Position numbers and translations under genes: made by a program. Source: Phycisphaeraceae bacterium (GTDB lineage: Bacteria; Planctomycetota; Phycisphaerae; Phycisphaerales; Phycisphaeraceae). From it: DNA of 64,000 nt. Below are positions 24,379 through 48,896 of this stretch, piece by piece. Each line of letters opens with the position of its first letter. Position 1 is the stretch's first letter. The stretch covers positions 1 through 64,000 of the forward strand of contig JANQFR010000005.1 of the NCBI GenBank assembly GCA_028277745.1. The letters are read 5' to 3'. The notes beneath the pieces are model-generated. The model was not told the origin of the DNA, searched no databases, and saw only the letters and a list, made by a program, of their open reading frames with translations.

Positions 24379-24435
24379 CGGTTGTGTGAGCCTATACCGA
24401 AACGGAATTACGCGGGAGACGGATCGTAAGCCTGA

Positions 24436-24490
24436 AACTAATTCCTTTTAGTTGACAACCGGAGTGTAGATGACTAAAACCATTTAGTCA
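24436..24490 (+). promoter_or_regulatory. Promoter and LacI operator candidates in the regulator/GH31 divergent region
   Basis: TTGACA at 24452-24457 and TAAAAC at 24475-24480 are 17 bases apart and face the GH31 gene. Dyad one, AACTAA-N6-TTAGTT (24436-24453), overlaps the -35. Dyad two, TGACTAAA-N4-TTTAGTCA (24471-24490), is perfect over 8-bp arms and overlaps the -10. Both share the ACTAA/TTAGT core, so they may bind the same regulator. Confidence 0.55.
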
Positions 24491-24567
24491 ACCCTCGATA
24501 TCTACTACTTCTCGAAAATGCTGAATTTCCGCCCCGCTGAACCGGTCTTCAGGAGTTGAAACAGGTC

Positions 24568-29350: not shown

Positions 29351-29444
29351 TTTCGCCTGTATCCTTTTTGACGTCGGCGTGAGCCGGCGTCGAGCCTCGC
29401 GGGCGCGTGTCGCCCGTTTCCCGCACCGCGAACCAGGTCGCCCC

Positions 29445-30635: not shown

Positions 30636-30689
30636 ATCCGTAAGACTCTTGCGCTCGCAGGCCGACCGTTCCCTGCATCCGAACGCATC

Positions 30690-31502: not shown

Positions 31503-31540
31503 TCGATTGCAACGACGATGACCATCCTGGGAGACCAGAA

Positions 31541-32359
31541 ATGCGATACCGCCTGCCTTCCCTTCGTCCCTCAACGGCTGAAAAAACGATAGCCGGCTTC
31601 ACGCTCATTGAACTGATCGTGGTGATTGCGATCATTTCTTTGCTGATCGCCGTCCTGCTGCCGGCGCTTAGTGCAGCGCGGGCGACAGCGCGTGATGCTG
31701 CGTGCGCTTCAAACCTGCGCCAGATCGGCTTCGCCACCATGGCGTACGCCGTGGATTACGGCGTGCTCCCGGTCGGAGTCGAAAGCACCTCGCCCGATTA
31801 TCGCGACTGGACGTTTACCCTACCGGATGGGTACATGGGCGGCAGCACGAGCGGCGCGTCCGCGGCACAGCAACGGGAAAAGGTCCTGCAGTGTCCCACC
31901 GCCAGAGCGTTGGGGTATCCCGGCGATCAACCTAACCACTACTCGGCGCATCCCCGGCTGTTTCCGGATATCGGAATGACCGATCCTTTTACCGGTCATA
32001 CGACTCAGCTTCGACCCTATCGTGTGGAAGAGATCGAGCGGCCGACGGACGTATTTCTTGTTGCAGATGGATCACAGCAGGCGTCGATCGATGATGGAGC
32101 CCAACCCTTGGCCACCTCGATCGATAGTTTTCGGATTTTTTGGAATCCCGGTTACGGCCTTGTCAAGGAGCCGTGGGTGAATCTTGAGGACACAATCGAT
32201 CAAGGGCCGAACGCGGACATCGACTCGATTAGCAGTTCGCATGTTCGTTTCCGTCATGGAGGAGACAACGTCGCCAACCTGTTGTTTGCCGACGGCCACG
32301 TCGCAACGATTCAATACGGTGAATTGCGTGTGAAGCATACGCGCGTCAATCGGCCATGA
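31541..32359 (+). CDS. Type II secretion-like pseudopilin
   Basis: A 272-residue protein. ATG 31541 is preferred over 31499 because a GGGAG-like site lies about 9 bases upstream and the leader is then 20 residues (MRYRLPSLRPSTAEKTIAG). Cleavage is before FTLIELIVVIAIISLLIA, with Glu at +5. LLPALSAARATARDAACASNLRQIG and VANLLFADGHVATI match the planctomycete H-X9-DG pseudopilins and the paralogue at 22473-23303. The gene is less GC-rich than its neighbours. It is part of the second regulator/pseudopilin/PEP-CTERM module. Confidence 0.88.
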   Translation: MRYRLPSLRPSTAEKTIAGFTLIELIVVIAIISLLIAVLLPALSAARATARDAACASNLRQIGFATMAYAVDYGVLPVGVESTSPDYRDWTFTLPDGYMGGSTSGASAAQQREKVLQCPTARALGYPGDQPNHYSAHPRLFPDIGMTDPFTGHTTQLRPYRVEEIERPTDVFLVADGSQQASIDDGAQPLATSIDSFRIFWNPGYGLVKEPWVNLEDTIDQGPNADIDSISSSHVRFRHGGDNVANLLFADGHVATIQYGELRVKHTRVNRP

Positions 32360-32387
32360 CCGTGAGCGTTGGTCCGCCGGGCGGACG

Positions 32388-34673
32388 ATGGAGCAGATCA
32401 TGTTGGAAGCGACGCCCCACAAGCGGGGCCGTTCGAGTGGTATGACCCCCCGATGGCTGGTTTTTTTAATGACGGTAACCATCGGTCCTGCTTGTGTTCT
32501 GGATGCCGACACGCGGCAAACCCCTCCCGGGAGCCCGGCGGGGGCTTCCGACGCGGCGGCGGGCTGGCGCCCGATGGCGTTCGTCACCGAGGAGGCCCGG
32601 GACGCGGGCGTGCGGATCGGCGGCGAAGGTGCGCAGTGGCCGCAGTCGATCGACGTCGATGAAGTCGACGGCTCGTTCGTGCTGTTCGCGACCGACGTGG
32701 GGGGGATCTGGCGGAGCCTCGACGGCGGCGAGCGGTGGGAGCCTTGCAACGTGGGCTACACGCCGCGCGGCAGCTGCGGCATCGCGATCGATCCGCACTT
32801 CCCGGACCGGGTGATCAGCGTCGGCAGCAACTCGATGGGCTCGAAATTCAACGGCCTATACCTCAGCGAGGATCGCGCGGCTTCGTGGCGGCCCGTACGG
32901 CTCGAACCGATCTCCGGCCGTGAAGACCGCAGGCGGCAGGTCGTCTTTGATCCGACCACACGCGACGAGGCGGCGGGGCTGACGCGGGTGGCGTATTGGT
33001 CGCGCACCGCGGAAGTCCAGCAAGACAACTGGGGCGACCTCGAGATCAACCCCGGGCTCTACCGCAGCGACGACGGCGGCCGGACCTGGAAACGCCTGAA
33101 TGATGAGGCCTCGCGCATTGCCGGGCACAGCGCGTTGGCGGTGCATCCCGCCTCCGGCCGGCTTTACGCAGCCAACGAACGCGGTGTCTTTATCAGCGAC
33201 GACCGGGGAGAATCCTTCGAGCGGGTGCTCGATCGGCCGGTAACCAGCATCGCGGTGAGCAAGGCCCGGCCTGAGTCGGTCTGGATCACCCACGCGGGTG
33301 GGCTGCGGGTTTCGGATGATGCCGGGCTTCACTGGCGTGAGATCGAGACAACCGGCCTGGAAGAACCGATCGCGGGCGAGAGCGGCCGGGATGCGCAGGC
33401 GACGCCTCGGACCAACGTCGAGTTCGGCGCCTTGCGCGTGAATCCTGTTGATGCCGACCGCATGGTGATGCGTTCGCTGGCGGACGACTGGCGCTGGCTG
33501 CGCCACGTGTCGGACGACGGTGGGCGGACCTGGGCGACGGCGCAGGTCGATCCAGGCCGGGCGTTCTTTCCGCAGAATGCACGCCAGGCGATGTTCAGTT
33601 GGCACCCGACGGACGTCGGACGGGTGTGGTCCTTTGGCGGCGACTGGCCGACGTTGAGCACCGATGGCGGGCGGACTTATCGCTGGGCCGGCGACGGCCA
33701 GAACGCGGTTTTCGTCGCCGGGCTTTTTAACCTTAACCCACATCATCCCGGCCTGTTGTTCTTATCGAGCCAGGACTACAACGGTGGGGTGACGCACGAC
33801 GGCGGGCGCACCTGGCGATACACCAACGTCTCTAGCAACGGCTGGGGCGGGTTTACGTACGGTGGGACCGCTTTGTCGCCGCACGTGCTGGCGGCGGGGC
33901 ACGCGGCGGGCGGCTGGTCCGCGCCGCGCGTCCTGACCATCAGCCGGGACGGCGGCGCGACCTGGACCGGCGACCACGCCCTGACCTGGACCAGCGACCG
34001 GCAGACCGAGACGTTTGGATTTGATGTCGGGCTGGTTCACCCGATTGACGAGAAGGCCGCTTATGTGGCGCGTTTCCGCACCACCGATGGCGGCCAGACC
34101 TGGCGGGCGATGGAGGGCTGCTCTGGCGTGTTCGCCGCCGACGCGTCTGGCCGACTCTTCGGCGTTCGGCAGCGCGCCGATAACGCCGACCTCGTGATCA
34201 GCGAAGACCTCGGAGAGACTTGGCGCGTCATCTGTTCCGTGAAAGGCGGGATCGATGATCTCTCGGTCACGCCCGACGGCGGTACGGTCTACCTCTGCTC
34301 ACGCAATCGGCTGTGGTCCGTCGATACGGAGTCCGATCGCGCGGCGACGCTCGGCAATCCACTGCGGTTGATCGACACCCCGCCGACCTCGACCGGCTGG
34401 ACCCGCATCGCGACCGTAAGCGTCGACCCGCAGCGGCCGAATGTCATCTATGTCGGGCAACGCATTGATCTGCATGTTGCCGACAAGGGCGTGATGCGCT
34501 CTGACGACGGCGGTGAGATCTGGACCAACCTCAACCTGGATCAGCCGATCGATGATCAAAGCGGGCAACGCGACGGCGGCCGCGAGCCTCAATGCGTCCG
34601 CGTTGATCCGCATACCGGCGCCCTCTGGGTGACCACGGGTTGCTACGGCGTCTGGCAATTCTCGTCAGAGTGA
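32388..34673 (+). CDS. Secreted Asp-box beta-propeller protein (GH74/sortilin-like)
   Basis: A 761-residue protein. About twelve Asp-box motifs (S/T-x-D-G-G-x-T/S-W) are visible, among them YRSDDGGRTWKRL, HVSDDGGRTWATA, ISRDGGATWTGD and MRSDDGGEIWTNL. They span the length, as in two stacked seven-bladed propellers. GH74 xyloglucanases and Vps10/sortilin domains share this layout; catalytic Asp residues were not identified with certainty. The N-terminus from Met19 has a signal-peptide-like helix (RWLVFLMTVTIGPAC), which could also be a weak lipobox. It starts 28 bases after the pseudopilin. Xyloglucan-type activity would fit with the GH31 enzyme. Confidence 0.82.
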   Translation: MEQIMLEATPHKRGRSSGMTPRWLVFLMTVTIGPACVLDADTRQTPPGSPAGASDAAAGWRPMAFVTEEARDAGVRIGGEGAQWPQSIDVDEVDGSFVLFATDVGGIWRSLDGGERWEPCNVGYTPRGSCGIAIDPHFPDRVISVGSNSMGSKFNGLYLSEDRAASWRPVRLEPISGREDRRRQVVFDPTTRDEAAGLTRVAYWSRTAEVQQDNWGDLEINPGLYRSDDGGRTWKRLNDEASRIAGHSALAVHPASGRLYAANERGVFISDDRGESFERVLDRPVTSIAVSKARPESVWITHAGGLRVSDDAGLHWREIETTGLEEPIAGESGRDAQATPRTNVEFGALRVNPVDADRMVMRSLADDWRWLRHVSDDGGRTWATAQVDPGRAFFPQNARQAMFSWHPTDVGRVWSFGGDWPTLSTDGGRTYRWAGDGQNAVFVAGLFNLNPHHPGLLFLSSQDYNGGVTHDGGRTWRYTNVSSNGWGGFTYGGTALSPHVLAAGHAAGGWSAPRVLTISRDGGATWTGDHALTWTSDRQTETFGFDVGLVHPIDEKAAYVARFRTTDGGQTWRAMEGCSGVFAADASGRLFGVRQRADNADLVISEDLGETWRVICSVKGGIDDLSVTPDGGTVYLCSRNRLWSVDTESDRAATLGNPLRLIDTPPTSTGWTRIATVSVDPQRPNVIYVGQRIDLHVADKGVMRSDDGGEIWTNLNLDQPIDDQSGQRDGGREPQCVRVDPHTGALWVTTGCYGVWQFSSE

Positions 34674-34683
34674 TCATGCAGGC

Positions 34684-34704
34684 CCGAAGCGGGAATCGCT
34701 TCGG
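34684..34704. terminator. Hairpin between convergent genes
   Basis: CCGAAGCG-N5-CGCTTCGG, a perfect 8-bp stem located 10 bases after the Asp-box gene and facing the end of the GH28-like gene. It may act in both directions. Confidence 0.6.
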
Positions 34705-34757
34705 ATCGTGAATGATACGGTTGTCTCGGGGCCGGCGGCCTTGGCGCAGCTCTTTGA

Positions 34758-36020
34758 TCAGTGCGGCCCGTTCTGTTGCAGGTCATCCGACGTGCGGATG
34801 TCACGGCGGCGGGATTGCGTCACCTTGTCGAACATGAGCGGGGGTCGGGCGTCGGAACGATCGTTGTCGAGGTTGACGTTGTCCAAGATCAATCGGTCGA
34901 CGCGTCGGGCGTACAACCCCCACGCCGGCAAGGTGCGGGCGCCTCGCCCCGGCTCTGTGATCTCGCCGGGCTCGCCGACCGACCCCGGCGGGTATGAGAA
35001 GCCGACGCTGACGTCCCGGAAGGTTGCGCACCCGACCGGTTCTTCAGCCCAACTCTCGACCGAACACGCGGCGCCGTATACGCCCGTCGCGGTGATGCGT
35101 TCAGCATGAACGCGGCCGATCCGGCTCGGCGGTTTCGCAAAGATCATCAAGGCGCACTCGACGTTGTGCATGGTCACGTTCGTGATCCGAACGTCGTCCA
35201 ATTCTCCGGGCATGGCGCTCCACGCGCTCGGCTGAAGTGTGACGCCGACCAATGTGTTGTGCCGATCCTGGGTGATATGAGGGTGGCGCCCGGGGCCCAC
35301 GACCAGGCACTGATCGATCGTCATGCGTCGGGCCGGCCCGATCCATCGGATCCCGTTGCAGGAGCTGTTGAGCACACAGTTATAGACCAGCAGATCGTCG
35401 ACCCACGCGCCGGCAATGGCGTCGTCGCCGGTGAAAAACCGGCAGCCGGTCACGGTGACCCGCTGACAAGACCGCTCCGCCGAGCCGCGGATGTGAAACC
35501 CATCCCACCCGCCTTGGACGGTAACATTATGGATGTCGATATCGTCGCCTTGTTGGACCAGGATCGCGTAGTTTGCTGAGTCGACCACTGTGACATCACG
35601 GACCGTGAAATGCCGGCAGCGTGCGGCAAGAATCGTGTGCGGCCCGCGCATCTTCTCCTCTCCCAGCGGATCAAACACCCGGCCTCCGTCGATCACCCCC
35701 GAGCCCGCGACCGCCGCGTTCTCCACCTGATCCGCCAGGATCAATGCACGATGCCAGCGCGCCGGTTTGCCCTGCGGTTCGTACCCGTGGTAGGCGTCCG
35801 GGTCTTCGATCCCCCGCAGCACCGCCCCGGCTTCCAGAAACAACGTCACTCCCGACCGCATGTGGAGCGTTGACGTGAGATACCGGCCCGGAGGCAACCG
35901 GACTTGGCCGCCCACTCCCCCGGCTGCGGACGCGTCGATCGCCCGCTGGATCGCCTGCGTGTCGTTCGAAACCCCGTCGCCGATCGCGCCATGATTCAGA
36001 ACGTCCGTGCCGGCTGCCAC
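34758..36020 (-). CDS. GH28-like right-handed beta-helix protein
   Basis: A 420-residue protein. The start is placed at GTG 36020 because AAGGAG (36033-36028) lies seven bases before it; a GTG at 36041 is seven codons earlier. The N-terminus NHGAIGDGVSNDTQAIQRAI is the pectate-lyase/GH28 superfamily opener. Beta-helix coils follow, with GGWDGFHI and FFTGDDAIAG where polygalacturonases have NTDG and GDD. The usual GHG and RIK motifs are not evident, so the activity may differ from polygalacturonase. No signal peptide, so probably cytoplasmic. It is divergent from the alginate-lyase-fold gene. Confidence 0.8.
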   Translation of the reverse strand: MAAGTDVLNHGAIGDGVSNDTQAIQRAIDASAAGGVGGQVRLPPGRYLTSTLHMRSGVTLFLEAGAVLRGIEDPDAYHGYEPQGKPARWHRALILADQVENAAVAGSGVIDGGRVFDPLGEEKMRGPHTILAARCRHFTVRDVTVVDSANYAILVQQGDDIDIHNVTVQGGWDGFHIRGSAERSCQRVTVTGCRFFTGDDAIAGAWVDDLLVYNCVLNSSCNGIRWIGPARRMTIDQCLVVGPGRHPHITQDRHNTLVGVTLQPSAWSAMPGELDDVRITNVTMHNVECALMIFAKPPSRIGRVHAERITATGVYGAACSVESWAEEPVGCATFRDVSVGFSYPPGSVGEPGEITEPGRGARTLPAWGLYARRVDRLILDNVNLDNDRSDARPPLMFDKVTQSRRRDIRTSDDLQQNGPH

Positions 36021-36249
36021 ATCGAGGCTCCTTTTCGTCACAGCTTACTTCGTCGCGGTCGGCCGCGTCGGCCTCCGATGTGGAGCACAGCGCCCAAGCG
36101 TGGCGCCGGTTGTTCGGGTGGCTTGTGGCCCCGGGCGTCGCATCGGATCGGGCTTGTGCGCATTTGGATAACATATATACCTTAATAGATGTGCGTGCGG
36201 CTGTTATGGTGACTGTCGCAGCGGAAGCGCAAGACGACGCTGGATTCTG

Positions 36250-37479
36250 ATGAGAGGTGTTTGCGTAATGGCTTTCCTCGATGATGTGCACCGCCGTTCG
36301 ATTCGCAGAGGCGCTGCCGTGGCGCGGCTGACTCCGGCTCACGCGACCTGTGCGGCCGTCTTGCTGACCATCGGCCTCACGACGCCGGCCGACGCCCAAT
36401 CGCCCGACGGCAGCGCGACAACGCCTCGGTCAGATCCCGGCGAATTCCGGATCCCCTCGGTGCTTCCTTTGAACCCGGATCAACGCGCGAAGCTGGCCCA
36501 GCTCATCGCGGATGATGAGCAAGCCCGGGCGCTGACCGATGCGGTGAAAGCCGAAGCGCAGCCGGCGCTGGGACGTCCGCCGCGGCCACTGGCGGTGCTT
36601 CATTATGAAGGGCTGGTCAACACCGACCCACGCCGGGTTCGGACCGTCGCGCATCTCAACCAGATGGCGGACGTCGCCCGGCTGTTCCGCGCCTGGCAGG
36701 TCTCGCCCACTCCTGATGTGGAGCAACATCTCTGCGAGATTATTCTCGCCTGGGCGGACACCTATGTCGTTACCGGCAACGATGTCCATGAAAACAAGTT
36801 CTTCCCGTTGTTCACAGCGTATGACGCGTTGCGAGAGCGGCTGGCGGAGAACGAGCGGGTGCGCGTCGACCGTTGGGTGCGCGAGATCGGCCGACGGCAC
36901 CACCAACGCATTCAACAAGGCGCCGGCCGAAACAACCGTTTCGCCAAGTCGATCCGGATCGCCGCGATCTGTGGTCGGGCCCTGGGCGAGGCCCGCTGGA
37001 TCGACGACGCTCGCCGCGCGGCCCAACGCTTGATCCAACAAAGTCTTGATGCAGACGGCGCCAGCTATGACCTTAAAGAACGCGACACATTAACCTATCA
37101 CAACAGCACGCTTAAGCCGCTGATCGAATTGTCTATTATCCTCGACGGCAATGCTCCGGACGCGCTGTACTATTGGGTCAACGATAAGGGCGGCTCCATT
37201 CAGAAGTCGGTTCGTTACGTCGTGCCATATGCTTCAGGCGAGAAGACCCGGCAGGAGTGGCTCAACAGCCGGGTCGCGCTGGATCAGCGCCGAGCGGCGG
37301 CGGGCATCGAAAAATATCGCCTGGGACGTCAGTTCCAGCCCCGCCAGGCCCTCGCGATGCTGGAACTGGCGGAGTATTACGAGCCCGATCTCACCCCGAT
37401 GATTGCCGACCTGACCGGGTCCGATGCGGACCGTTTCCCGAGTTGGCAAACCTTGATCAATGACGCCTGCCGTGATTGA
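36250..37479 (+). CDS. Alginate-lyase-fold (PL5-like) secreted protein
   Basis: A 409-residue protein with a long basic N-region and a signal-type helix (CAAVLLTIGLTTPADAQS). The body is an alpha/alpha toroid: LFRAWQVSPTPDVEQHL and AWADTYV near the middle, RNNRFAKSIRIAAICG, and DGASYDLKERDTLTYHNSTLKPL. The last two align with the active-site regions of PL5 alginate lyases. There NNH is expected, but here it is NNR; the Tyr of YHN is kept. The His-to-Arg change may alter or abolish lyase activity. An uronic-acid polymer is a likely ligand. Confidence 0.72.
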   Translation: MRGVCVMAFLDDVHRRSIRRGAAVARLTPAHATCAAVLLTIGLTTPADAQSPDGSATTPRSDPGEFRIPSVLPLNPDQRAKLAQLIADDEQARALTDAVKAEAQPALGRPPRPLAVLHYEGLVNTDPRRVRTVAHLNQMADVARLFRAWQVSPTPDVEQHLCEIILAWADTYVVTGNDVHENKFFPLFTAYDALRERLAENERVRVDRWVREIGRRHHQRIQQGAGRNNRFAKSIRIAAICGRALGEARWIDDARRAAQRLIQQSLDADGASYDLKERDTLTYHNSTLKPLIELSIILDGNAPDALYYWVNDKGGSIQKSVRYVVPYASGEKTRQEWLNSRVALDQRRAAAGIEKYRLGRQFQPRQALAMLELAEYYEPDLTPMIADLTGSDADRFPSWQTLINDACRD

Positions 37480-37542: not shown

Positions 37543-40500
37543 TCAGGTTCCTGGAGGCAAATCGAGGTCGTCGTCGAAGAAGCCGTCGTCTGGCTCAGAA
37601 GCACCTTGGGCGGCGTGCGTTTGGCTGGGGGAATGCTTCAGCCGTTCGAGGATGCGCGGAGCCAGGGAGAGGATCAGCAGGAGGACCAGGAAGAGGCCGG
37701 CCGTCCAGGCGGCGGTGGGACTGACGCCCGCGACGCCGGGCGGGTCGGCGTCAAAGGTGACGGTCATGTCGGCGTTGGGCTCCACCTGGATCGCGCGGCC
37801 GAACTCGATCACGTGGCCGCGCAAGGGCATGGCGATCACTAGGGGGACGCTCGCGGCGGCGGCGGCCTCCTGCGTCTCGATGAGTTGCGAGATGATCAGG
37901 TCCAGATTCTCGCTGTCCGACTGACTGAGGCTGGTGCGGATGCGGTCGGCTTGAGCCGCGTCGAAGCCGGCGTCGATGGGAGGAAGCGCCTGCTGACGGA
38001 CCATATCGGGGTCGGGTGTGGGGCCGGCAAGTTGACGGAGCCGGCCGCGGGATTCGACCAGGCCGAGCAGCGCCTGGTCACGGTTGAGCCGGTGTAGCTG
38101 GACGCGCGCGTCTTCATTAAAGGCTTCGTCACCGAGGGAGTAGTTGTAGGCGTTTTCGAGGGCTTGTTTGGCGGCGCGCAGGTCGCCCCGGCCGGCGAAT
38201 TGATTGCCCTTGGCCTGGAACGCGGCGGCTTTGCCGAGGTTGCTGCGCTGGTAGCGGCGGACCGCCTGCTCATATGTGGCGGCGTCGTATTCGGTGATCA
38301 CGGGCCGCGCCGTGTCCCGCGGTTTTACTGCAAGCGTGCCGTCAAAATTGTCATAGCGGTAACCTTCGGGGAGGTAAAAGACCCAACTGAGGTTCTGCAG
38401 GGGCAGGTCGAAGCGTGGGCCTTGGAAAGCCGGGCTTGTCCATTGGCGCGTCGGCCCGGAGGGGATGATATAGACCATGTCGATGTTGACCGGCAGCTCG
38501 CCCGAGGCGCTTTGTGAGAGGGGCACGAGATAGACCTCCGGGTTGCCGGTGCGGTCGCGCCGGATCGCGGGGGTGGCGGATCGGCCGTTGACCAGCAGCG
38601 ACCAGACCTCGGCGCCTGGGGGCAGCCGGGTTTCGAGGTTACGCTTGGCGCCGACGCTCATCGCCATCTGGACCCGGTTGATCGTCTCGCCTCGCTCGGT
38701 GACGACGCTGGTGATCTCGGCGCTGAGCACCTCGGCGTCGAGCAGTTGGGCGGCGTCGAGCCGCTGGGCGCGTAAGACCAGGGCATAGTCCGGCGATGCG
38801 GCTCGATACGCCAGCGCGGCATCGGAGAGGTTGCCGGCCGCAAACGAGCGGGGAATGGTGCGGGCTTCGGCGATCTGGAGCGATGGGCTGAGTTGCTCCG
38901 CGGTCAATTCCACCCGGTCGTTGGATTTGGCGACGACGTAGCACGATTGCAGGTCGGCGTCGTTGGCGATGACCGGCAGCAACTCGACCCGCTGATCATT
39001 GCGGTCGAATCGTGTCTCGTAGCGGACAGTCAATGGATACGGCCGATCGTACCACTTGCCGGTCAGCTCGATACGCCAGCGCCCGCCGCCAGGCTCGATC
39101 TCCTCCCGCCGGGCGATATTGGGCCCGGTGATCAGCAGCCCCAAGGCGTCGGGTTCGATGGTGATCTCGAGTTGCTTGATTCCGGCATGGCGGAGGTTGT
39201 AACGGAGGTTGTGAGTATGACGAACCAACCCTTCACTGACGGTCGCGACGTGCAGCGATTCAACGGTGATGCGTGGTTCGATCACCTCGGTGTTCAGCGC
39301 CAGCGACCAGGCGGGGCGCAGCAGGCTGAACGCGAGCGTACCCTGTTCGCGGATGCCCAGGTCGGTGGGATTCAGTTCGCTGACGCCTTGCCGTTCGACG
39401 ACGGTAAGCCGTACGCCGCGGTCGGCGGAGATGATGATCCGTCCGCTGTGCTTTAACGCATCGGTTACCGAAACCCGTGGCGCGTCGAGTTCGGGCGGCA
39501 GCCCGGAGATGGGGCGGCTGAGCGCGAGATGGACCGGCGTCGGGCCGAGGCGTTTGTTGGGCAGGTGCACCGTTGCGATGCGCTGACCGGCTTCGATGCG
39601 CTCATCCCAGTGGCTCATGCCCTCGGCCGAGAGCGTGTCGATGTCGTAACCCTCGGGGATCTCGAGTTGGAATGAGAAGACGCCCGCCTTCGCGATCTGG
39701 ACGTTAAATTGACCGACATACACCAGCCGGTCGTCGGCCACGGTGAAGGTGACGCTCTCGTGGCTGCGGATCTCGGGCTGGACATCGAGAACGTTGACGA
39801 CGACGCGATCGTCGGGCCTGTCGAGACGATAAGCAAACCGGACTTCGCGCAGCGTCGCGGCCGAGAAGGATTGAAGCAGCCCGGTCGCTTCGCGGGTGAA
39901 GTCGGAGGCATTGATGGCGGGCGGGTGCTGGTCGACGGTGATATCGACCGCGTCGCTGACGGTCAGGCCGAGCGTCGCACGCTGACGGGCGGTGTCAGTG
40001 ACGTGCAAGCTCTGAACGGCGACCGGTCGGCTGTCGGCCGGGGGTTCGATCTGCGTGACGACGGCCAGGCGGTATTCGCCGGCTGCGGGTTGAGAGAGCT
40101 TGACCTCCAACGCGTGTGTAGCCGGGTCGAACCGCCACGCCCCGACGTTCTGGCCGGCCACGGCGGTGACGGTCATGTTGTCCGGAACCGTGACGCGGAT
40201 TTCGTCGAGTTGGCCCTGGGCGACTTCGAAACGCAGGTCGTGCCGGGCCTCGACCAAGCCGGCGTCGAATCGAACAGCGGAAAGGATGGTCGTGAAGAAC
40301 TTGGTCTGCTCGAGTTCGCGTTGCCGAGCGCGGGGTTTCCAGTCGACCGCGAGGTGGTCGAGCGGGCCGAGACCGGCGTCGATCAGGGTGGCGCCTTCAT
40401 CATTGGTTTCGATCTGCTTCCGCAAGGCGGCGGGTATGCGCACTTCGACATCCGTGCGGGGGATCGTCAGCCGAACCTGCTTGGTCATGGCGGGGGGCAG

Positions 40501-43500
40501 CGACAGGTTGAAGCCGCGGACTTGATTGTCGTCGGCCAGGGGGAGCGGCAGCAGGAAACGGACGGTCGCGTCGTACCGGCCGGGTTGTGCAATCGCGACG
40601 TGGTAGCCGCTGTCGCTGTGACGGAGACGAAGCGCCTGATGGTTAACGCAGGTGTCGAGCAGGATCGCGTCGGCGGGCAGTAAATCGAAGCGGATTGGTT
40701 CAGCGGCGTCGACCGTGAAGGTCATTTCGCCTGTCAGGTTGTCATCCTCGGCGGTGAATTCAAGCTGAAGGTCGCGCAGCACAATCGCTTCTTCGTTCAG
40801 TTCGGTCTTTGTGGTGGTGGTGCAGCCCGGCAACCCCAGCGCCAACACAAGGGTCGCGGTGGCGACCGCGCCGCCGGCGGGTCCGTGCGCCGCTCTGCGC
40901 TGCACGGCGAGACGCCACGCCAGTGCGATCAAGAGCAACAGCGGCACACCCCATGTCAACAAGTGCCCCAACAACCACGCGCCGAGCATGAACCGGCACG
41001 CAGCGTACGCCAACCCGGTCAACGCCGCGGCGAGCAACACCGGTCGCCATCGACGCCAACCGAAAGAGGCGAGCAGACACAGCAGCGACGCGATCGGCAC
41101 GATCACTGCGCTGAAGAACGTGACATGCCGCCGCCAGTCCGGCACAATCCGGGTTGTGACCGCCAGCGGCGTATCGGTCGCAAGGTCGATCACCTGCGTG
41201 TATCGCACGGCGGTGAAGTCGCCCGTGTTTTGTAAACCAGTTTTGAAGGCGGACGTGGTGGCCGCCATCCCGCCGATACACAACGCGGCGACGAGCACAA
41301 CGAGGACGAAAACCTGCCGGAACCATCCGCGGCGTAAGATGTAAACGCCGATGAGCAGGCAGGCCGCAATGGCGATCAGCGCGATCGCCATTGGAAGGCG
41401 CGTAAGGCTTTCGAGTGCTTGTGCCCACGCGTTACCAATGACTCCGAAGACCGGGGCGATCCCAACGCGCTCGGCGGCCGGGACGTCGGGCTTCATGCTG
41501 CCGCCTATCGCCTGGATCGACCATCCCTCGGGAACGTGCAGCGTCCAGCTGTCAAAGGTGCTGGGCACGTCACTGATCGGCGCGATGAATGATGCGCGGC
41601 CGGGCCATCCGAGCCGATCGTGGACCTGCCCGTATTCAAGCTCGATCGTGATGGGTTCATTGGGATCGCGCTGGCGTTGGAGGGGGACCATGAGCCGGCC
41701 GGTGGCGCGATCCAGTGAAGCCGTGATGCGACGGGTCGATTCATTGCCTTCGGGCGTGCGTTCGATCAGACGCGTCGCCCAGACATCGGCGCCGACGGGG
41801 ATCGAGAGTGTCAGGAATTGCTGAGAAGAATTCTTGACTTTATAGCGGACCTTCGTCAGTGACTCGACCGCGGCGTTGTCGCGCGGGACGATATTCGTTT
41901 CGGCCTGCATCAGCTCGATGACCACCGGCGTCAGCACGCCGCGCTCGTATGGGTCGATGCGAACGCGTCCGGTGTGCGGGGCGGCGACATACTTGTATGT
42001 CTGTAGCAGCGGGGCGTTGATCAGCAGGCGATAGTTTGCGGGCATCTCTTCGCGGTCGATGACCAGCAGTCCGGCGTCAGGCTTGATGTCGGACGTGAGC
42101 TTGAGATTCAAGTGGCTGGCGATGCCGACAAAACCGATCTGCGTTTCGACGCCTTCGCCCTCGACCCCACCAATCAAAACAAGCGGCTGCTCGCTGTCGT
42201 AACGCTGGGTATACGTGACGCCGAGGTTATAGTCGCCGATGACTTTCCGTTGAAGAGTGACGATCCACCGGGTGGGGTCGTTCGGGTCCTGCCGCCAGCG
42301 GCGGACGTCGCGGCCGACAAACTGGATGTTGTCCAATTCGGGCGCGATGACGAAGCGCAACTCATCGACCGGCGAGCCGGTGATGAAATAGTTGGCCGCG
42401 ACGCTGCCGTAGGCGACGCCCTCACCGAGCGACAACAGGTGGAAGGCTTCCATGCGGATGCCCGCGGGAGTCTGCGTGGTTCGGAGTGTGATGGACCAAT
42501 CCGGATCGCGGAAACGGTAAGCGAATTGTGCATCGGGGATGCGTGTGGGCGCCGATGCGGCGGAGATCGTGCGTAGGTTATTGGTTTCCGGAGGATCGAC
42601 CTGCAAGCCGTTTTCCACGACAACCACGAGGTAGCCGCGCTGATTGAGGGCGCCCTCAACACGCGGCGCCTGGATGCGCCGCGATTCATCGAGCGGTGAC
42701 CGGCCTTGCTCCATCTTCAGCGTCACCAGGCCGCGCCCAAGCAACGGTTGCTGAAACTGCACGCGCACCGGCGTGCCGGGCGCCCCCTCTCGTGCGGTCA
42801 GCACCCGGTAATCCGTGACGCCGGCTCCGGTCGCCTCGACCATCGTGAACCCGTCGGGGACGATGATCGTGGCGTCGCGGATCGGTGCGTCACGCACGTC
42901 CAACTCGATCTGCGTCTCGAGCGTGAGGTCTTCTTCACTCACGATCAGCACATGACGCTGCACCGCGTCATAGGCCGGGACGATATTGTCCAGCGCCAGA
43001 CGGACGCGATAGCCCACACCGGCGAAGGAGTAATAGAACGCCTTGCCCGTGGGCAACGGGCGAGGGTGCCGCGCATCCAACTGTGCGCGGGGCATGGCGG
43101 CTGCGTCAATCTGCGCCAGGCCGGCGGCTTGTTCGACAACCATCTGGATCGCGCTGTTGGTGCCGATGGTCAGATTCCCGCCGGCACGCATGCCAACGGT
43201 GGATTCGATCTCGGGGAGGTCGACCTCCGTCGGCAGTGCGGACAAGGGCATCTCGGCCAACACTTGCAGCGCATAACGCCGTGTCTGAGGACGGTTGAGT
43301 GCGACAACCAGTTCACGCCCGCCATCTTCCAATGTATCCAATCGCCAATCGCGGATGAAAGCGCCCCGCACCTGCGTAATGTTCAGTGAAGGAGATGCCG
43401 CGAACCGCAGCTCATTGAGTTGGCCCTGGGCAACGTCGAACACCGTCAGCGTGTCCAGACGCAATGCGCCGACACGGATATCGGCGATGACATTCGATCG

Positions 43501-44073
43501 GCTTGACACCACAAGTTTCGCGTCGAGCTCTTGCACCTGAGGCTTCCAGCGCAGATGGAACTCACGCTGTGCCCCTTGCAGCGCGGTAAGCGTCAAGCGG
43601 CTGTTGTCGATCAAGCGTTCGATCCGGACCGCTCCCGGCAGTTCGATCTCCAGGTCGTTACGGTCCGATGAAATCTTGATCGGTCGAAGCTGTGCGCTGG
43701 GCAGTGTGAAACGTACGTCCCGCCAGGACGGGTTGTTGGCATCGCTTTGCGCCCGGGCAGCGAACCGCAAAGATAGCTGATGGTTGCCCGCTCTTGAAAA
43801 GATCGCTGTGTACGACCTTGTCTCCGGGTTGTAGCGGATCTTTCGTCCATCGGTTGTTTCCACCGGCTGGTCGAGAGCGACGTCGCCTTCGATGAGTGTG
43901 ATTTGCTGATCCGCGCGTGTCGTTGTGATTTTGTAGGTCGCGGTGAAACGGAACTGTGTCTTGTCGATCTCGCCGACAATCTGAGCTTCCAAAACGATTG
44001 GCGGCTGGGCCCCCGCCGCTGGCGCCAAGGCAAGGAGGACGGTCGGTAAAACCAGCAAGAGGATCAGACGCAT
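37543..44073 (-). CDS. Giant secreted two-half repeat protein
   Basis: A 2176-residue protein, start chosen at 44073 for the clean signal peptide MRLILLLVLPTVLLALAPA. Two related halves of about 1085 residues are visible. Both contain strands of the type QGQLNELRFAASPSLNITQV / QGQLDEIRVTVPDNMTVTAV, each followed by a (D/A)WR(L/F)D turn. The first half ends in several hydrophobic helices (about 885-1080). The second begins with LALGLPGC, a lipobox-like sequence with Cys1084. A final helix (about 2115-2140) and an acidic tail close it. No enzyme motif is seen. Third gene of the sigma-factor operon, 28 bases after the VWA gene. Confidence 0.82.
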   Translation of the reverse strand: MRLILLLVLPTVLLALAPAAGAQPPIVLEAQIVGEIDKTQFRFTATYKITTTRADQQITLIEGDVALDQPVETTDGRKIRYNPETRSYTAIFSRAGNHQLSLRFAARAQSDANNPSWRDVRFTLPSAQLRPIKISSDRNDLEIELPGAVRIERLIDNSRLTLTALQGAQREFHLRWKPQVQELDAKLVVSSRSNVIADIRVGALRLDTLTVFDVAQGQLNELRFAASPSLNITQVRGAFIRDWRLDTLEDGGRELVVALNRPQTRRYALQVLAEMPLSALPTEVDLPEIESTVGMRAGGNLTIGTNSAIQMVVEQAAGLAQIDAAAMPRAQLDARHPRPLPTGKAFYYSFAGVGYRVRLALDNIVPAYDAVQRHVLIVSEEDLTLETQIELDVRDAPIRDATIIVPDGFTMVEATGAGVTDYRVLTAREGAPGTPVRVQFQQPLLGRGLVTLKMEQGRSPLDESRRIQAPRVEGALNQRGYLVVVVENGLQVDPPETNNLRTISAASAPTRIPDAQFAYRFRDPDWSITLRTTQTPAGIRMEAFHLLSLGEGVAYGSVAANYFITGSPVDELRFVIAPELDNIQFVGRDVRRWRQDPNDPTRWIVTLQRKVIGDYNLGVTYTQRYDSEQPLVLIGGVEGEGVETQIGFVGIASHLNLKLTSDIKPDAGLLVIDREEMPANYRLLINAPLLQTYKYVAAPHTGRVRIDPYERGVLTPVVIELMQAETNIVPRDNAAVESLTKVRYKVKNSSQQFLTLSIPVGADVWATRLIERTPEGNESTRRITASLDRATGRLMVPLQRQRDPNEPITIELEYGQVHDRLGWPGRASFIAPISDVPSTFDSWTLHVPEGWSIQAIGGSMKPDVPAAERVGIAPVFGVIGNAWAQALESLTRLPMAIALIAIAACLLIGVYILRRGWFRQVFVLVVLVAALCIGGMAATTSAFKTGLQNTGDFTAVRYTQVIDLATDTPLAVTTRIVPDWRRHVTFFSAVIVPIASLLCLLASFGWRRWRPVLLAAALTGLAYAACRFMLGAWLLGHLLTWGVPLLLLIALAWRLAVQRRAAHGPAGGAVATATLVLALGLPGCTTTTKTELNEEAIVLRDLQLEFTAEDDNLTGEMTFTVDAAEPIRFDLLPADAILLDTCVNHQALRLRHSDSGYHVAIAQPGRYDATVRFLLPLPLADDNQVRGFNLSLPPAMTKQVRLTIPRTDVEVRIPAALRKQIETNDEGATLIDAGLGPLDHLAVDWKPRARQRELEQTKFFTTILSAVRFDAGLVEARHDLRFEVAQGQLDEIRVTVPDNMTVTAVAGQNVGAWRFDPATHALEVKLSQPAAGEYRLAVVTQIEPPADSRPVAVQSLHVTDTARQRATLGLTVSDAVDITVDQHPPAINASDFTREATGLLQSFSAATLREVRFAYRLDRPDDRVVVNVLDVQPEIRSHESVTFTVADDRLVYVGQFNVQIAKAGVFSFQLEIPEGYDIDTLSAEGMSHWDERIEAGQRIATVHLPNKRLGPTPVHLALSRPISGLPPELDAPRVSVTDALKHSGRIIISADRGVRLTVVERQGVSELNPTDLGIREQGTLAFSLLRPAWSLALNTEVIEPRITVESLHVATVSEGLVRHTHNLRYNLRHAGIKQLEITIEPDALGLLITGPNIARREEIEPGGGRWRIELTGKWYDRPYPLTVRYETRFDRNDQRVELLPVIANDADLQSCYVVAKSNDRVELTAEQLSPSLQIAEARTIPRSFAAGNLSDAALAYRAASPDYALVLRAQRLDAAQLLDAEVLSAEITSVVTERGETINRVQMAMSVGAKRNLETRLPPGAEVWSLLVNGRSATPAIRRDRTGNPEVYLVPLSQSASGELPVNIDMVYIIPSGPTRQWTSPAFQGPRFDLPLQNLSWVFYLPEGYRYDNFDGTLAVKPRDTARPVITEYDAATYEQAVRRYQRSNLGKAAAFQAKGNQFAGRGDLRAAKQALENAYNYSLGDEAFNEDARVQLHRLNRDQALLGLVESRGRLRQLAGPTPDPDMVRQQALPPIDAGFDAAQADRIRTSLSQSDSENLDLIISQLIETQEAAAAASVPLVIAMPLRGHVIEFGRAIQVEPNADMTVTFDADPPGVAGVSPTAAWTAGLFLVLLLILSLAPRILERLKHSPSQTHAAQGASEPDDGFFDDDLDLPPGT

Positions 44074-44101
44074 AACGGACACTCCGGGGCATTGAATCGA
44101 A

Positions 44102-47100
44102 TCAGGGCGATGGCGCAGGCGGCAAGCCCTGAGCCTGCCGGGCCAGTTCAAGCAGGTTACGCGCTTGCGCGTCGAGGGGCAGCGCGGCGCTGACTTCTTC
44201 CATGACGCGGACCACTTCTGCAAAGTTCCCGTTTTGTGCGTGCGGGCTGCCGCGCAACAACTCGGCGAACTGAGCCGCGGAGGCGGCCAGATGGAACCGC
44301 GGGTCGGATGAAGCCGTGTGTGTGTGTGACGCTACCGCAGGTAACCGGCCGGTGATCTCTTGGACCTGTCCGGTCTGCGGGTTTTCGTGCCGCACATACA
44401 CCGTACCCATATCCCGCGGCCCGCCCTCGGCGTCCTGCGCGGCCAACAGTTCGAGTTCATACAGCGCAGTGGCGGATTGGCCGCTGCCGACCTCGCCAGC
44501 ATCGACCGCGTCATTACGGAAATTAACATCTGCAATGTCGCGGTTCTCGTAGCCGATCAGCCGATATCGCCGCACGCACAACGGGTCGAAAGCAACCTGG
44601 ATCTTCACGTCCCGAGCGATCGTCGGCAGTGTCGCGGCCAAGTCGTCAACGAACAGCCGCTTGGCTTCTTCCACCGAATCGACAAACAGGTAGCTTCCAT
44701 CGCCACGGTTGGCCAATTGTTCAAGCAGGCGGTCGTCGTACGAGCCGGCGCCAAACCCGACGCTGGTGAACGTGACGCCGTGGTCGCGGTAAGCCGCGGC
44801 GTGGGCGAGCACTTGCTCGGCGTCGGCGGGCCCGACGTTCGCGACACCGTCGGAACAAAGGATGACACGGTTGACGCCGCCGGGCGTGAAATGCCGCCGA
44901 GCCACCTGGTAACCCAGCTCGATTCCGCTCATCAGATTGGTTGAACCGTGGCATTGGATCGACTGGATGACGGTGTCAAGATCCCGCCGCTTCTCATCCG
45001 CGGGCCAGTTTTCGGCCAACAGGTTCGCGCCCGTGCCGTAGGCGATCACCGAGACGCGGTCGTGTTCGCCGAGCTGATCCAACAGCATCCCCAGCGATTG
45101 TTGAACCAGCGGGAGCCGATCTTCCGTGTCCATCGAACCGGAGCTGTCGATTACAAACACGAGGTGCGCAGGTTTGAGCTGGTCCCGTCCGATGACCTTG
45201 CCGCGCACCCCGATTTTAAGCAGCGTCAACTCCGGGCGATAGGGCGAGGGCCCCGCCGCGACATGGACCGTGAATGTCTGCCGGGCGTCTCGACCGGTCG
45301 GATAGTTGTAATCGAATGCGTTGATGAACTCCTCCATACGCACCGTATGCCGTGGCGGCAGGTGGCCCTGCGCGATTGAACGCCGGGCGATCGCGTAAGA
45401 CGCGGTGTCCACGTCGATCGCAAAGGTCGACAGCCGATCGGCCCGGGTCATCACCCACGGATTCACCGGCGGCGCAACCAGCGGGGGGGCTTGCGTTTGC
45501 GGTTCATCGACCGGCGGCTCCGGCGCGGACTCCGGTTGAGGCTCAATCTTGTCTCGCTGACCCACGCCGGCACGCAGGGTTTCAAGCAACCGATCGACCT
45601 GTTTGAGGTGTTCGGCTGGGGCGCGGATGATCAGTCGCCCGCCCAATTCACGGATTTCCGCCGTGTCGCCGCCGTAAACCGCCCAGTCTTCCTGCCGGCC
45701 GACGGAATCCTGAATCAGGGTCAGAACCCCTTCGATCCGTTCGGGCGTCGTCATCTCCGGGTCCGGATCGTCAGCCGCCATCTGTGTAAGCAGACCGGTG
45801 ATATCAAACACCCGCAGGTCGCGGTTGCGATTCAGGTCTTGGCGGGTGGAGATCGTGACGACGCCGTCAGCTATGGAGTAAGCGATCGGGTCGAAATCGT
45901 GGCTGACCTGTTTAAGCACCAGCCGGAGCGCCTGCTCGGCCGGGGCGTCGTTTAACTGCAGGGTGATCGGGGTGTCCATCTCGACCCCCGCCGCTTCGAG
46001 CGCGGTCCAATTCACAAAGAAATTGGCGCCGGTCGTGTTGCGCAGGTAGTCGACAACACTGACCAACCGATTCTCATGAAAGTTGATCGGCACCGGATCA
46101 CGGAGCTTGAGCACGACGCGGCGGTCGGCTGCACGGCCGGCGGCCTCGGTCTGGGATTCCTGGCCCCGGAGCCGACGAAGCAGGTCAGCGATCTTCTCAT
46201 GGTTGACTGGCGACGTATGGATGTTGATCCGGCCGTCAACGATGCTGATCGGCGGATCATCGCCATCCGCTTCGGTGGTTGTCTCGTCATCGATCGATTC
46301 ACGCAGCAACGCGCCCAACATGATCAACTGTTTTTCGCGGTGTGATTCCGCCGACTCGACTTCTTCATCGTCGCCCGCGTCGCCAAACAGACCTGCCCCA
46401 ACGCCGAATTCTTTCGCGTTCGCGCCACCCGAATTTGTGTTGGATAACGCATCGACCAGGCTGAATCGCCGACTATCGGTACGGTCGGGGGCTTGTGTTA
46501 ACAGATCACGAACGTCGTAAGCTTGTGTCTGCTGTTTGAATGATCTGCCGAGCCGCCTCTCAGTCAACTGCGGCCAGTCCGTGGGAGTAACGATCAGGTC
46601 ACCGTGCGGAGGAGCTTCCTCCGGCTCCGGCGTGGCGGTTTGGAGGTGTTTTTCTCGAACCAACTGCTCTTCACTCCTCGCCCCTTGCACGTTTTCGATC
46701 AGCTGACGCATGTGACGGGCCGGGGCGTTGTCCGGATCGACGAACAATGTCTGATCAACCAGATCCAGGGCGTCGTCGTAACGCTGGTCACGTTGCAGTT
46801 CGACGGCCCGGGCCAGCTGTTGGGCGGCTTTGTCCGTGCGCCTCGACGCCTCTGACTCGGCGAGTTCCTGCAGGACACGCCGCTCCATCTGCTCAATCGT
46901 TGGTTGAGGCTTCGCGCCGCCAGCGCCTCTAGCGCCGCTCGACTCTGCGAACCGTGTCGTGATTTCAGGTAATGGTTTGACGCTTACGGTCACGTCGTAG
47001 CCCATGGCGTCGGGGACCGGCTGCAGGTTGGAGATTTGGTCGGCCGGCATGGAGGCCGGCGGCGTCATGGCGGCGATCGGGTGATCAAACAGATCCGAAT

Positions 47101-48190
47101 GATTCTCAATCCCCAAGGCGTGCCCGTTGGCCGCAACGCTGCCGAACCAATTTTTGGCCTTGCCCTGTCCCTCGCCATCCTGATCAACGAGCGTTTCATC
47201 TCTTTCGCGGTCGCTCAACCGAGCGTTGACGTTGCGGTCAGCGATCCTGATGTCGGATAAACCCGCCTGTCTGTAATCGTCATCCGTCACCGGCAACCGT
47301 TTGAGCCGGCCGTTCGCGTCTTGTCTCTCGGCCACTGCAAAAGATTCGCCGCCGCTTAATTGTCCGGCTTGTTCAAAAAACTCGGTCACTTGCTCGACGG
47401 TCCGCCCGGTCTGCGATTCGATCAGCTTACGGGCTTCGTCTTTAGGCAGATATACAACGTGGTTGTCCTTGAACACGACGGAGACCCCGGGTTTATCACT
47501 GCTGAATCGCTCGAAGCCAGCGACAACTTCGGCGTTCAGGTCGTCCTGATCACCCAGGCTCGTGGCAACGTAAGAGCTGTTTTCATGAACCCATTGTTTT
47601 TTTTGCTGCGGGCTGTAGCTGTCGAAGTCGGCGGGGACCGAAGCGCTGTCGGAAGGCGAAAGCAGGTAGCCGGGGGCGATGTAGCTCTCGGCCACCAGCA
47701 CGCCGAGGTCGTCGGGGTAGCGCCCGTCGTTTTTCTGGGAGTACATCACCATGCCCTGGTGAATGCCGCGCAGCTGGGTGCTGCTTTGCATCTGCCGGGC
47801 GGTTCGCCGGGCCGCGCCGAGGCTTGGGAACAGCAACGCCGCCAGTACGCCGGCGAGCATCAGGCCCGCTGCCGCGGCGATGATCGGCTTCCCGATCCGC
47901 CATCTCCCCGTGCCGCGCAGAGGTTTCCCGAAAGGACTCGGGCCTCCGGCGGCGGAGGGTTCCTCGTTGAGTTTGTCGAGAACCGACGCCCGTCGGTCGG
48001 CGCTCAGGCACGGCGTATCGTCCGATTCGAATCCCTCACGCAGCAGATTGGCGAGAACGCGCATGTCTCCCAGCCGCTCGCTCAGTTGCGGGTCGGTCTT
48101 GAGGTAGTCCAAAAGCTGCGTCTTCGTCGGTTCGTCGAGCTCATTGAAGACCAGTTGGGCCAGCAGCATCTCCGCCTGTTCGCGGTTCAT
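44102..48190 (-). CDS. Membrane VWA protein with anti-sigma-like, pseudopilin-like and STN domains
   Basis: A 1362-residue mosaic. Residues 1-95 are a helical cytoplasmic part, placed like an anti-sigma domain. A membrane helix (about 102-122) runs into LLFPSLGAARRTARQMQSST and ends at VVFKDNHVVYLP, closely resembling the H-X9-DG pseudopilins. TPR-like helices lie near 440-510. An STN/secretin-type domain (about 700-790) has INFHENRLVSVVDYLRNTTG. A YfbK-type N-terminal region (NPWVMTRADRLSTFAIDVD) precedes a VWA domain with the MIDAS sequence Asp1015-SSGSM. A YfbK C-terminal region follows. Stops 46 bases from the sigma gene. Probably holds the sigma factor and senses envelope state (inference). 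Confidence 0.83.
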   Translation of the reverse strand: MNREQAEMLLAQLVFNELDEPTKTQLLDYLKTDPQLSERLGDMRVLANLLREGFESDDTPCLSADRRASVLDKLNEEPSAAGGPSPFGKPLRGTGRWRIGKPIIAAAAGLMLAGVLAALLFPSLGAARRTARQMQSSTQLRGIHQGMVMYSQKNDGRYPDDLGVLVAESYIAPGYLLSPSDSASVPADFDSYSPQQKKQWVHENSSYVATSLGDQDDLNAEVVAGFERFSSDKPGVSVVFKDNHVVYLPKDEARKLIESQTGRTVEQVTEFFEQAGQLSGGESFAVAERQDANGRLKRLPVTDDDYRQAGLSDIRIADRNVNARLSDRERDETLVDQDGEGQGKAKNWFGSVAANGHALGIENHSDLFDHPIAAMTPPASMPADQISNLQPVPDAMGYDVTVSVKPLPEITTRFAESSGARGAGGAKPQPTIEQMERRVLQELAESEASRRTDKAAQQLARAVELQRDQRYDDALDLVDQTLFVDPDNAPARHMRQLIENVQGARSEEQLVREKHLQTATPEPEEAPPHGDLIVTPTDWPQLTERRLGRSFKQQTQAYDVRDLLTQAPDRTDSRRFSLVDALSNTNSGGANAKEFGVGAGLFGDAGDDEEVESAESHREKQLIMLGALLRESIDDETTTEADGDDPPISIVDGRINIHTSPVNHEKIADLLRRLRGQESQTEAAGRAADRRVVLKLRDPVPINFHENRLVSVVDYLRNTTGANFFVNWTALEAAGVEMDTPITLQLNDAPAEQALRLVLKQVSHDFDPIAYSIADGVVTISTRQDLNRNRDLRVFDITGLLTQMAADDPDPEMTTPERIEGVLTLIQDSVGRQEDWAVYGGDTAEIRELGGRLIIRAPAEHLKQVDRLLETLRAGVGQRDKIEPQPESAPEPPVDEPQTQAPPLVAPPVNPWVMTRADRLSTFAIDVDTASYAIARRSIAQGHLPPRHTVRMEEFINAFDYNYPTGRDARQTFTVHVAAGPSPYRPELTLLKIGVRGKVIGRDQLKPAHLVFVIDSSGSMDTEDRLPLVQQSLGMLLDQLGEHDRVSVIAYGTGANLLAENWPADEKRRDLDTVIQSIQCHGSTNLMSGIELGYQVARRHFTPGGVNRVILCSDGVANVGPADAEQVLAHAAAYRDHGVTFTSVGFGAGSYDDRLLEQLANRGDGSYLFVDSVEEAKRLFVDDLAATLPTIARDVKIQVAFDPLCVRRYRLIGYENRDIADVNFRNDAVDAGEVGSGQSATALYELELLAAQDAEGGPRDMGTVYVRHENPQTGQVQEITGRLPAVASHTHTASSDPRFHLAASAAQFAELLRGSPHAQNGNFAEVVRVMEEVSAALPLDAQARNLLELARQAQGLPPAPSP

Positions 48191-48235
48191 GGTTGTTTTT
48201 CTCGCTGTCGCCTCTGAACTGGGGGGAGGCGGGGT

Positions 48236-48838
48236 TCAGATCGCTCCGTTGTTTTTCAGTCTTTGCGTCAATTCCGTCATGGCTTTATTCAGCCGGTGGG
48301 CCACGCTGCCGGGGGTCGACTCGGTCACTTTGGCGATCTGGCGGATAGACAAGCCCTCGACGAGCTTCAGCACCAGCGCTTCTCGCTGTTCCCGCGGCAG
48401 CCGGCGAACCATGCGCATCGCGTAGTCCACCAGGTCCCGTCGCTCAAGGTCCATCAGCGCTTCGCCCGGGTCGGACGTCTCAGCCCTTGAGGTTTGCTGC
48501 AGGTGTTGTTGGCCGCGGCGAAGTCGGGACCGCTTGCGTAAGACATCCATCGCCAAGTTGTGCGTCACCCGGTAAAGCCAAGTGGACAGGTGCCGGATGT
48601 CACGGGCTCGGTCGGTGTCGCGGTAGCGGTGAAGGCGGAGGAATGCTTCCTGGACGACGTCCTGGGCCTCATCACCGCTTGTGCCGACCAACTGGCGGGC
48701 GTAGCGTAGCAGCGGCCCTTCAAACCGGTCGACCACCTGCTCAAAACTGTCGGCCAACGCGGGCGCCGCAGCGCTCAGGCCCGGCCGGGCGTCACTCCCG
48801 ATCCCGCCGACCTCCTGTGATTCACACGCCTCATCCAT
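48236..48838 (-). CDS. ECF-type RNA polymerase sigma factor
   Basis: A 200-residue sigma-70 family protein. Region 2 is visible as LLRYARQLVGTSGDEAQDVVQEAF with HLSTWLYRVTHNLAMDVLRK. Region 4 reads RLPREQREALVLKLVEGLSI with the helix-turn-helix IRQIAKVTESTPGSVAHRL. Regions 1.2 and 3 are absent, as in ECF factors. The N-terminal 25 residues are an unconserved extension. It is the first gene of a minus-strand operon with the membrane VWA protein and the giant secreted protein. A GCGAAC-N16-CGTCTCA promoter before it suggests autoregulation. Confidence 0.95.
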   Translation of the reverse strand: MDEACESQEVGGIGSDARPGLSAAAPALADSFEQVVDRFEGPLLRYARQLVGTSGDEAQDVVQEAFLRLHRYRDTDRARDIRHLSTWLYRVTHNLAMDVLRKRSRLRRGQQHLQQTSRAETSDPGEALMDLERRDLVDYAMRMVRRLPREQREALVLKLVEGLSIRQIAKVTESTPGSVAHRLNKAMTELTQRLKNNGAI

Positions 48839-48867: not shown

Positions 48868-48896
48868 TGAGACGCTTGAAGGGGGCCGCTGTTCGC
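48868..48896 (-). promoter_or_regulatory. Candidate ECF-type promoter of the sigma operon
   Basis: On the minus strand GCGAAC (48896-48891) and CGTCTCA (48874-48868) are 16 bases apart, resembling the GGAAC/CGTC pattern read by ECF sigma factors. It lies 30 bases before the sigma start codon. Confidence 0.4.

Follow-up and report, generated by a model that had tools for sequence, protein, structure and literature searches.

The stretch of DNA analysed here (the window) covers positions 1 to 64,000 of the forward strand of contig JANQFR010000005.1 of a Phycisphaeraceae bacterium. On its reverse strand lie the gene of an ECF sigma factor, the gene of a mosaic protein of 1362 amino acids and a giant third gene of the same operon. 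The sigma factor and the mosaic protein had been paired in the original prediction; both reading frames lie exactly where it had placed them, and the mosaic architecture with its four named parts is borne out by Pfam, own-genome and profile comparisons. From its N-terminus onward, the mosaic protein consists of an anti-sigma-like domain, a membrane helix with a pseudopilin module, a series of secretin pieces and a VWA-YfbK end. Listed from upstream to downstream, the features are:

48891..48896, reverse strand: possible -35 element (GCGAAC), 16 nt before the -10-like element; by eye, weak
48869..48874, reverse strand: -10-like element CGTCTC of the sigma operon, a one-base variant of CGTCTA; by eye
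48236..48838, reverse strand: ECF sigma factor gene, 200 aa (ORF list and Pfam)
44102..48190, reverse strand: gene of the mosaic anti-sigma/VWA protein, 1362 aa
47906..48190, reverse strand: putative anti-sigma domain of the zinc-less class I type, residues 1-95 (homology to zf-HC2 and anti-sigma N-termini)
47399..47875, reverse strand: membrane helix and pseudopilin module without prepilin cleavage motif, residues 106-264
46979..47035, reverse strand: scrap of a secretin barrel domain, 19 aa, residues 386-404 (E 5.9e-05)
46547..46891, reverse strand: secretin TPR and linker (..DWPQLTERR), residues 434-548 (E 2.3e-23)
46160..46531, reverse strand: secretin N1, first copy, residues 554-677 (E 2e-21)
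45773..46135, reverse strand: secretin N0 (STN), residues 686-806 (E 2.9e-59)
45572..45769, reverse strand: secretin N1, second copy, residues 808-873 (E 3e-17)
44129..45463, reverse strand: vWF_A, VWA and YfbK_C, residues 910-1354 (Pfam)
37543..44073, reverse strand: giant downstream gene, third gene of the operon, start placed by eye at the signal-peptide Met

The sigma factor matches the Pfam domains Sigma70_r2 (E 1.5e-13) and r4_2 (E 2.7e-12). For the mosaic protein, Pfam alone is confident for the VWA-YfbK end only, and the other parts were recognized by comparison with proteins of its own genome. At that end, vWF_A (residues 910-992), VWA (1010-1177) and YfbK_C (1186-1354) all score above the Pfam cut-offs and stand in YfbK-type order. 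The MIDAS site, which had been described as intact, is indeed so, as its DxSxS...T...D residues were located by eye.

The giant gene was listed as an open reading frame at 37543-44223, and its start was moved by eye to 44073. Its product is beta-rich, is built with two repeats that have diverged (about residues 77-872 and 1151-1955) and is kept at about 40% identity in relatives. It had no Pfam or NCBIfam family match above cut-off, nor a match at E <= 1 in a PDB sequence search. A 632-aa stretch was predicted to be all-beta (pLDDT 77), and its Foldseek matches, an oligosaccharyltransferase subunit and an integrin, had TM-scores of only ~0.2. Elsewhere in the window, positions 22476-37479 carry polysaccharide-degradation genes (GH31, alginate lyase, BNR repeats) and a GntR-type regulator, with two DUF1559-type pseudopilins nearby at 22.5-37.5 kb. 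A T2SS operon beside the mosaic gene was considered and rejected, as the 10 ORFs scanned at 22.5-37.5 kb contained no T2SS core gene.

The N-terminus of the mosaic protein resembles those of two orthologs, with 45% identity to L054 over residues 1-131 (E 4e-23) and 37% to L057 over residues 1-140 (E 4e-16). Both orthologs match the anti-sigma family NF052375 (E 6e-10 and 6e-13). The window protein had no direct anti-sigma family match at E <= 1 in the NCBIfam scan, and its N-terminus is devoid of zinc residues. Class I anti-sigma domains occur in zinc and zinc-less forms, even inside one group, according to an extract of PMC7406223. By homology to orthologs with NF052375/zf-HC2 matches, the N-terminus is anti-sigma-like, and together with the adjoining ECF sigma gene this makes the protein a probable class I anti-sigma factor (ASDI). 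From homology and gene order, we infer that this domain binds or holds the neighbouring sigma factor; the mosaic protein probably keeps this gene-activating factor silent. Known pairs of ECF sigma and class I anti-sigma factors likewise have adjoining genes, a helical N-terminal domain with or without zinc and one apparent membrane helix. They differ from the mosaic protein in its putative periplasmic part, ~1240 aa of machine fragments and VWA-YfbK.

The pseudopilin likeness that had been proposed for residues 100-260 is upheld. A profile of nine pseudopilin-type proteins of the own genome matched the mosaic protein at E 1e-22, almost entirely through residues 115-159; it also matched L048 (E 3e-19) and L102 (E 1.5e-18), again with nearly all of the signal in the helix region. 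In a profile-profile comparison (hhalign), eight modules of fused proteins matched seven own-genome pseudopilins with probability 99.9 and E 4.9e-36. Because this match spans 147 columns, the whole module is homologous, and not the helix alone. The resemblance to pseudopilins of the same window did not hold, as the closest ones belong to the TQLRGIHQ group, which lies in other parts of the genome. The own genome contains 13 further matches around residues 84-182 (mostly 104-161), and those inspected are pseudopilin-type genes. A phmmer search with residues 96-285 matched L048/L059, L102 and fused proteins of another type across the whole module. Free pseudopilins of the own genome are not the nearest relatives of the module, which lies closest to these fused proteins and to the two further anti-sigma copies. 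A 735-aa fused protein of that genome matches residues 107-278 with 44% identity. Proteins of another family of roughly 735-770 aa (L009:6389-8593 on contig 88 of the own genome, L105, L107, L108 and L109) carry the same module at their C-terminus, also without the cleavage motif, and the members scanned had no Pfam or NCBIfam match.

Like the DUF1559 and GspG-like pseudopilins, the mosaic protein has a helix followed by a globular module with a ..DNHV.. end. Unlike them, it has no cleavage motif and carries the anti-sigma-like domain in its place: Pfam found no N_methyl prepilin cleavage/methylation motif, and the helix is without FTLIE. The motif is missing in the fused pseudopilin forms as well. 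The predicted structure of the module reached a pLDDT of 46.7 from an alignment of two rows only. In a PDB search, the module had matches at chance level. A second copy of the pseudopilin end, suspected by eye at residues 310-370, was rejected (2.9 bits; 2 of 300 shuffles scored higher).

Between this module and the VWA domains, the window protein matches a profile of seven true secretins, the source of the E values listed above for the secretin pieces, with an overall E of 4.3e-116; the match falls into five stretches. In the order in which they stand in the protein, they correspond to profile positions 886-904, 387-505, 619-745, 514-634 and 678-743. The pieces are homologous to secretin parts, including the N0 and N1 domains, and they are permuted. 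Among 525 shuffled or reversed controls, the best reached E 0.023; of 92 further ORFs (400 aa or longer) taken from the ortholog loci, not one matched at E <= 0.1. The 19-aa scrap is 53-74% identical to seven secretins and is the only part to resemble the secretin C-terminal domain PF00263, for which Pfam found no match in the mosaic protein. The N0 is 64% identical over 112 aa to the own-genome secretin, which is encoded on contig 7 and matches residues 429-874. The N0-N1 region had one chance-level match in the PDB. An STN domain had been predicted here; it is present as the secretin N0 (residues 686-806; Pfam STN below cut-off, E 0.13), but it forms part of a longer secretin segment that has been rearranged. 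The sequence of TPR, linker, N0 and N1 is shared with the T2SS and T4P secretins GspD and PilQ, from which the mosaic protein differs in its changed order, doubled N1, inner-membrane anchor and lack of any barrel beyond the 19-aa scrap.

Secretin N0-N1 pieces also occur apart from secretins: they make up most of two short, apparently exported proteins of the own genome (L011:7009-8064 and L012:5959-7074, contig 84), one of which has a lipoprotein-like start. Since these are not anti-sigma proteins, the recycling of secretin pieces is not exclusive to the mosaic gene.

Searches for the VWA-YfbK end, with the own genome counted in each, found it in the class at E <= 1e-115 (12 of 397 genomes) and in the family at E <= 1e-110 (8 of 51 genomes). 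Relatives occur in records named Planctomycetota, Phycisphaerae and Lentisphaerae. Of the 27 VWA relatives, 22 have upstream sequence, and 20 of these carry a sigma gene directly in front of the VWA gene; in the five without upstream sequence (L050, L058, L099, L102, L103) the VWA gene reaches the edge. The exceptions are L064, with no upstream sigma gene at E <= 1e-5, and L101, with a weak match on the other strand only. The giant downstream gene was found in 17 of the 27 relatives and is absent from L060-L064 and L101; L048, L053 and L058 end at or near the sequence edge, and L047 has 1.1 kb left. The operon of sigma factor, mosaic protein and giant beta-protein recurs in related Planctomycetota. 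In the VWA tree L060-L064 form a separate clade, and the window protein groups with L102.

While the ends of the mosaic protein are conserved across relatives, the middle is not, and its pieces differ in order and content in nearly every relative. Our census covered 25 middles, that is, the 28 VWA proteins except L061, L064 and L101. Secretin pieces occur in 13 of the 25, pseudopilin pieces in 4 and either kind in 15, or 16 if L055 is included. Seven further middles match the secretin profile at 2e-36 or better, and library profiles also detect secretin pieces in L047 (Amuc_1098 secretin family, E 4e-25), L094, L096 and L099. The remaining nine (L050, which is cut, L051, L053, L056, L058, L093, L095, L097 and L100) yielded no machine piece in these tests, although a regular expression for the secretin end motif matches two of them, L093 and L097, and none of 200 shuffles.

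Comparisons with the own genome used the whole protein for the window, all but the N-terminus for L055 and L098, the secretin piece alone for L104, L099 and L057, and the pseudopilin module for L102. Across eight genomes searched, the middle of L098 had matches in its own genome only: its pseudopilin end (32 aa) is 63% identical to a true prepilin-type protein there, and its secretin linker piece (53 aa) is 43% identical. In L055, from genome G057, residues about 419-702 hold two pieces of the genome's own EPS chain-length determinant (L214) in swapped order; by eye, they come from between the determinant's two membrane helices.

Eight middles with strong secretin pieces were each compared with 26 secretins of 26 genomes. 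The own-genome secretin ranked first of the 26 in seven of these eight; in the window it ranked only sixth, so that tracking of the resident secretin is shown in the relatives but not in the window. For instance, the L104 piece is 73% identical over 411 aa to its own secretin, compared with 64% to that of G019 and 45% and 44% to those of G429 and G428, two others of the genus, and the L057 piece is 62% identical to its own and 48% to the next best. The L099 piece does not discriminate (own 45-49%, G222 46%, G298 43%). The sister orthologs L103 and L104 are 79% identical in VWA and 36% in their secretin pieces; these pieces are 66% and 72% identical to the respective own secretins, which are 41% identical to each other. 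A tree of 26 N0 domains has five label changes, of which at least three are forced by well-supported branches, with an unsettled bootstrap. Together, the likeness to resident secretins and the N0 tree indicate several origins for the pieces, through repeated gain or through repeated overwriting by gene conversion. A chimeric assembly was rejected: the relatives' pieces are roughly 50-73% identical, not identical, to their own secretin, and they occur in several genomes, one of which is a single contig (G431).

The captured pieces look constrained at the protein level. In five trios, a counting method gave a dN/dS on the piece branch of 0.38, 0.12, 0.46, 0.32 and 0.14 (upper 95% bounds 0.53, 0.19, 0.69, 0.48 and 0.25), where dS on the piece branch exceeded 1.2 in three of the five; in several trios dS is near saturation. 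These values bear on an alternative explanation, in which the middle is a tolerant spacer: recombination would insert fragments of secretin and other envelope genes, gene conversion would renew them owing to their sequence homology, and only the anti-sigma and VWA ends would work. The ever-changing order and content and the nine middles without a machine piece are in line with such a spacer, as are pieces like the 19-aa scrap that look too small to fold, and gene conversion would also produce likeness to the own genome. However, the low dN/dS of the pieces (0.12-0.46, with no upper bound beyond 0.69) disfavours it. Moreover, most of the long secretin pieces are whole domains in the secretin's own reading frame, and the orthologs draw on different export machines, all of them envelope-facing. 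We therefore consider a spacer unlikely, though it is the strongest competitor.

In the explanation that we prefer, and to which we give about an even chance, the mosaic protein is an anti-sigma factor that is anchored in the membrane and into which decoys of the cell's own export machines are integrated. On the cytoplasmic side, the N-terminal domain would hold the ECF sigma factor encoded next to it; one helix would cross the membrane, and the periplasmic part would display copies of contact domains from these machines. Here the decoys would be the pseudopilin module together with the TPR, N0 and N1 of a secretin; the decoys of relatives would be pseudopilin ends or derive from a polysaccharide co-polymerase. 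STN domains bind to each other, and also to inner-membrane proteins through the periplasmic domains of the latter (extract of PMC11637429), and for this reason the decoys may detect whether the real machine parts are there, are engaged or have become faulty. The state of the decoys could be held or passed on by the VWA-YfbK domain and the giant partner from the operon. The sigma factor, released through proteolysis or a conformational change, would then activate mainly its own operon. The original prediction had suggested that the protein senses secretion or pilus assembly; this suggestion gains indirect support because the pieces of the relatives follow the resident secretin and look constrained, and we infer both the sensing of an export machine and the periplasmic display.

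More tentatively, and by analogy, the protein may act as a guard with integrated decoys, its periplasmic region being rebuilt in each lineage from the host's export machines and continuing to match the watched machine; we regard this extension as somewhat doubtful. In plants, immune receptors with integrated decoys use as bait copies of components of their own cell, and these were gained repeatedly. The parallel is an analogy only, as no effector or attacker has been shown for the mosaic protein.

Alternatively, the N0, N1 and pseudopilin parts might serve for docking and not for sensing, recruiting the VWA domain and the giant beta-protein to the secretion apparatus; the whole would then act as an accessory factor or in surface assembly, controlled by a sigma factor that regulates itself. 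Several observations would suit docking: few parts are kept as widely as the VWA domain and the giant partner, the promoter suggests control of the own operon (see below), and the same genome encodes free-standing N0-N1 proteins. Yet a pure docking factor needs neither an anti-sigma-like N-terminus nor the sigma gene upstream in 20 of 22 loci, and we consider this explanation rather improbable. Least of all do we expect FecR-type cell-surface signalling, in which the partner of the STN would be the signalling domain of a transducer in the outer membrane: FoxR and PupR do have STN-like periplasmic domains (extract of PMC11637429), but no FecR family match was found with Pfam and NCBIfam at E <= 1, and the N0 is of the secretin type, 64% identical to the own secretin and surrounded by secretin TPR, linker and N1. 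Thus, the mosaic protein shares with FecR, FoxR and PupR an anti-sigma factor with an STN-like periplasmic domain, but has no FecR domain and instead carries permuted secretin N0, N1 and TPR/linker with the pseudopilin module.

A literature search, with most subscription papers outside its scope, found no paper on such mosaic anti-sigma proteins. If the decoy explanation is true, bacteria would monitor large secretion machines by means of a transcriptional switch that carries copies of machine parts, and these copies would be renewed as the watched machine evolves. The proteins would offer a testable case of modular, recurrent self-mimicry in bacterial signalling, and a handle on the role of the many pseudopilins and secretins in Planctomycetota.

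The promoter bears on what the sigma factor would switch on. The element CGTCTA is shared among relatives, occurring exactly upstream of the sigma gene in 13 of the 17 loci read, compared with a chance expectation of about 0.09 per 350-nt stretch (calculated by hand for equal base frequencies). L048 has CGTCTT and the window CGTCTC, and no CGTCTA-like element was seen upstream in L051 and L057. In the whole genome G045, the pattern TTKNAA at 15-17 nt before CGTCTA has one match, which is its own sigma promoter. Across nine genomes, the promoter pattern had 60 matches versus 93 for the reversed pattern, without a genome-wide excess. These promoter-pattern results make it probable that the sigma factor controls transcription of its own operon; for want of an excess over the reversed pattern, no wider or T2SS regulon is visible. 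At L123 in genome G057, a DUF1570 gene has its start codon 7 nt after a TTTGAAC..CGTCTA site, which makes it a possible leaderless target of the sigma factor. In G298, one MoxR gene lies behind a matching promoter site.
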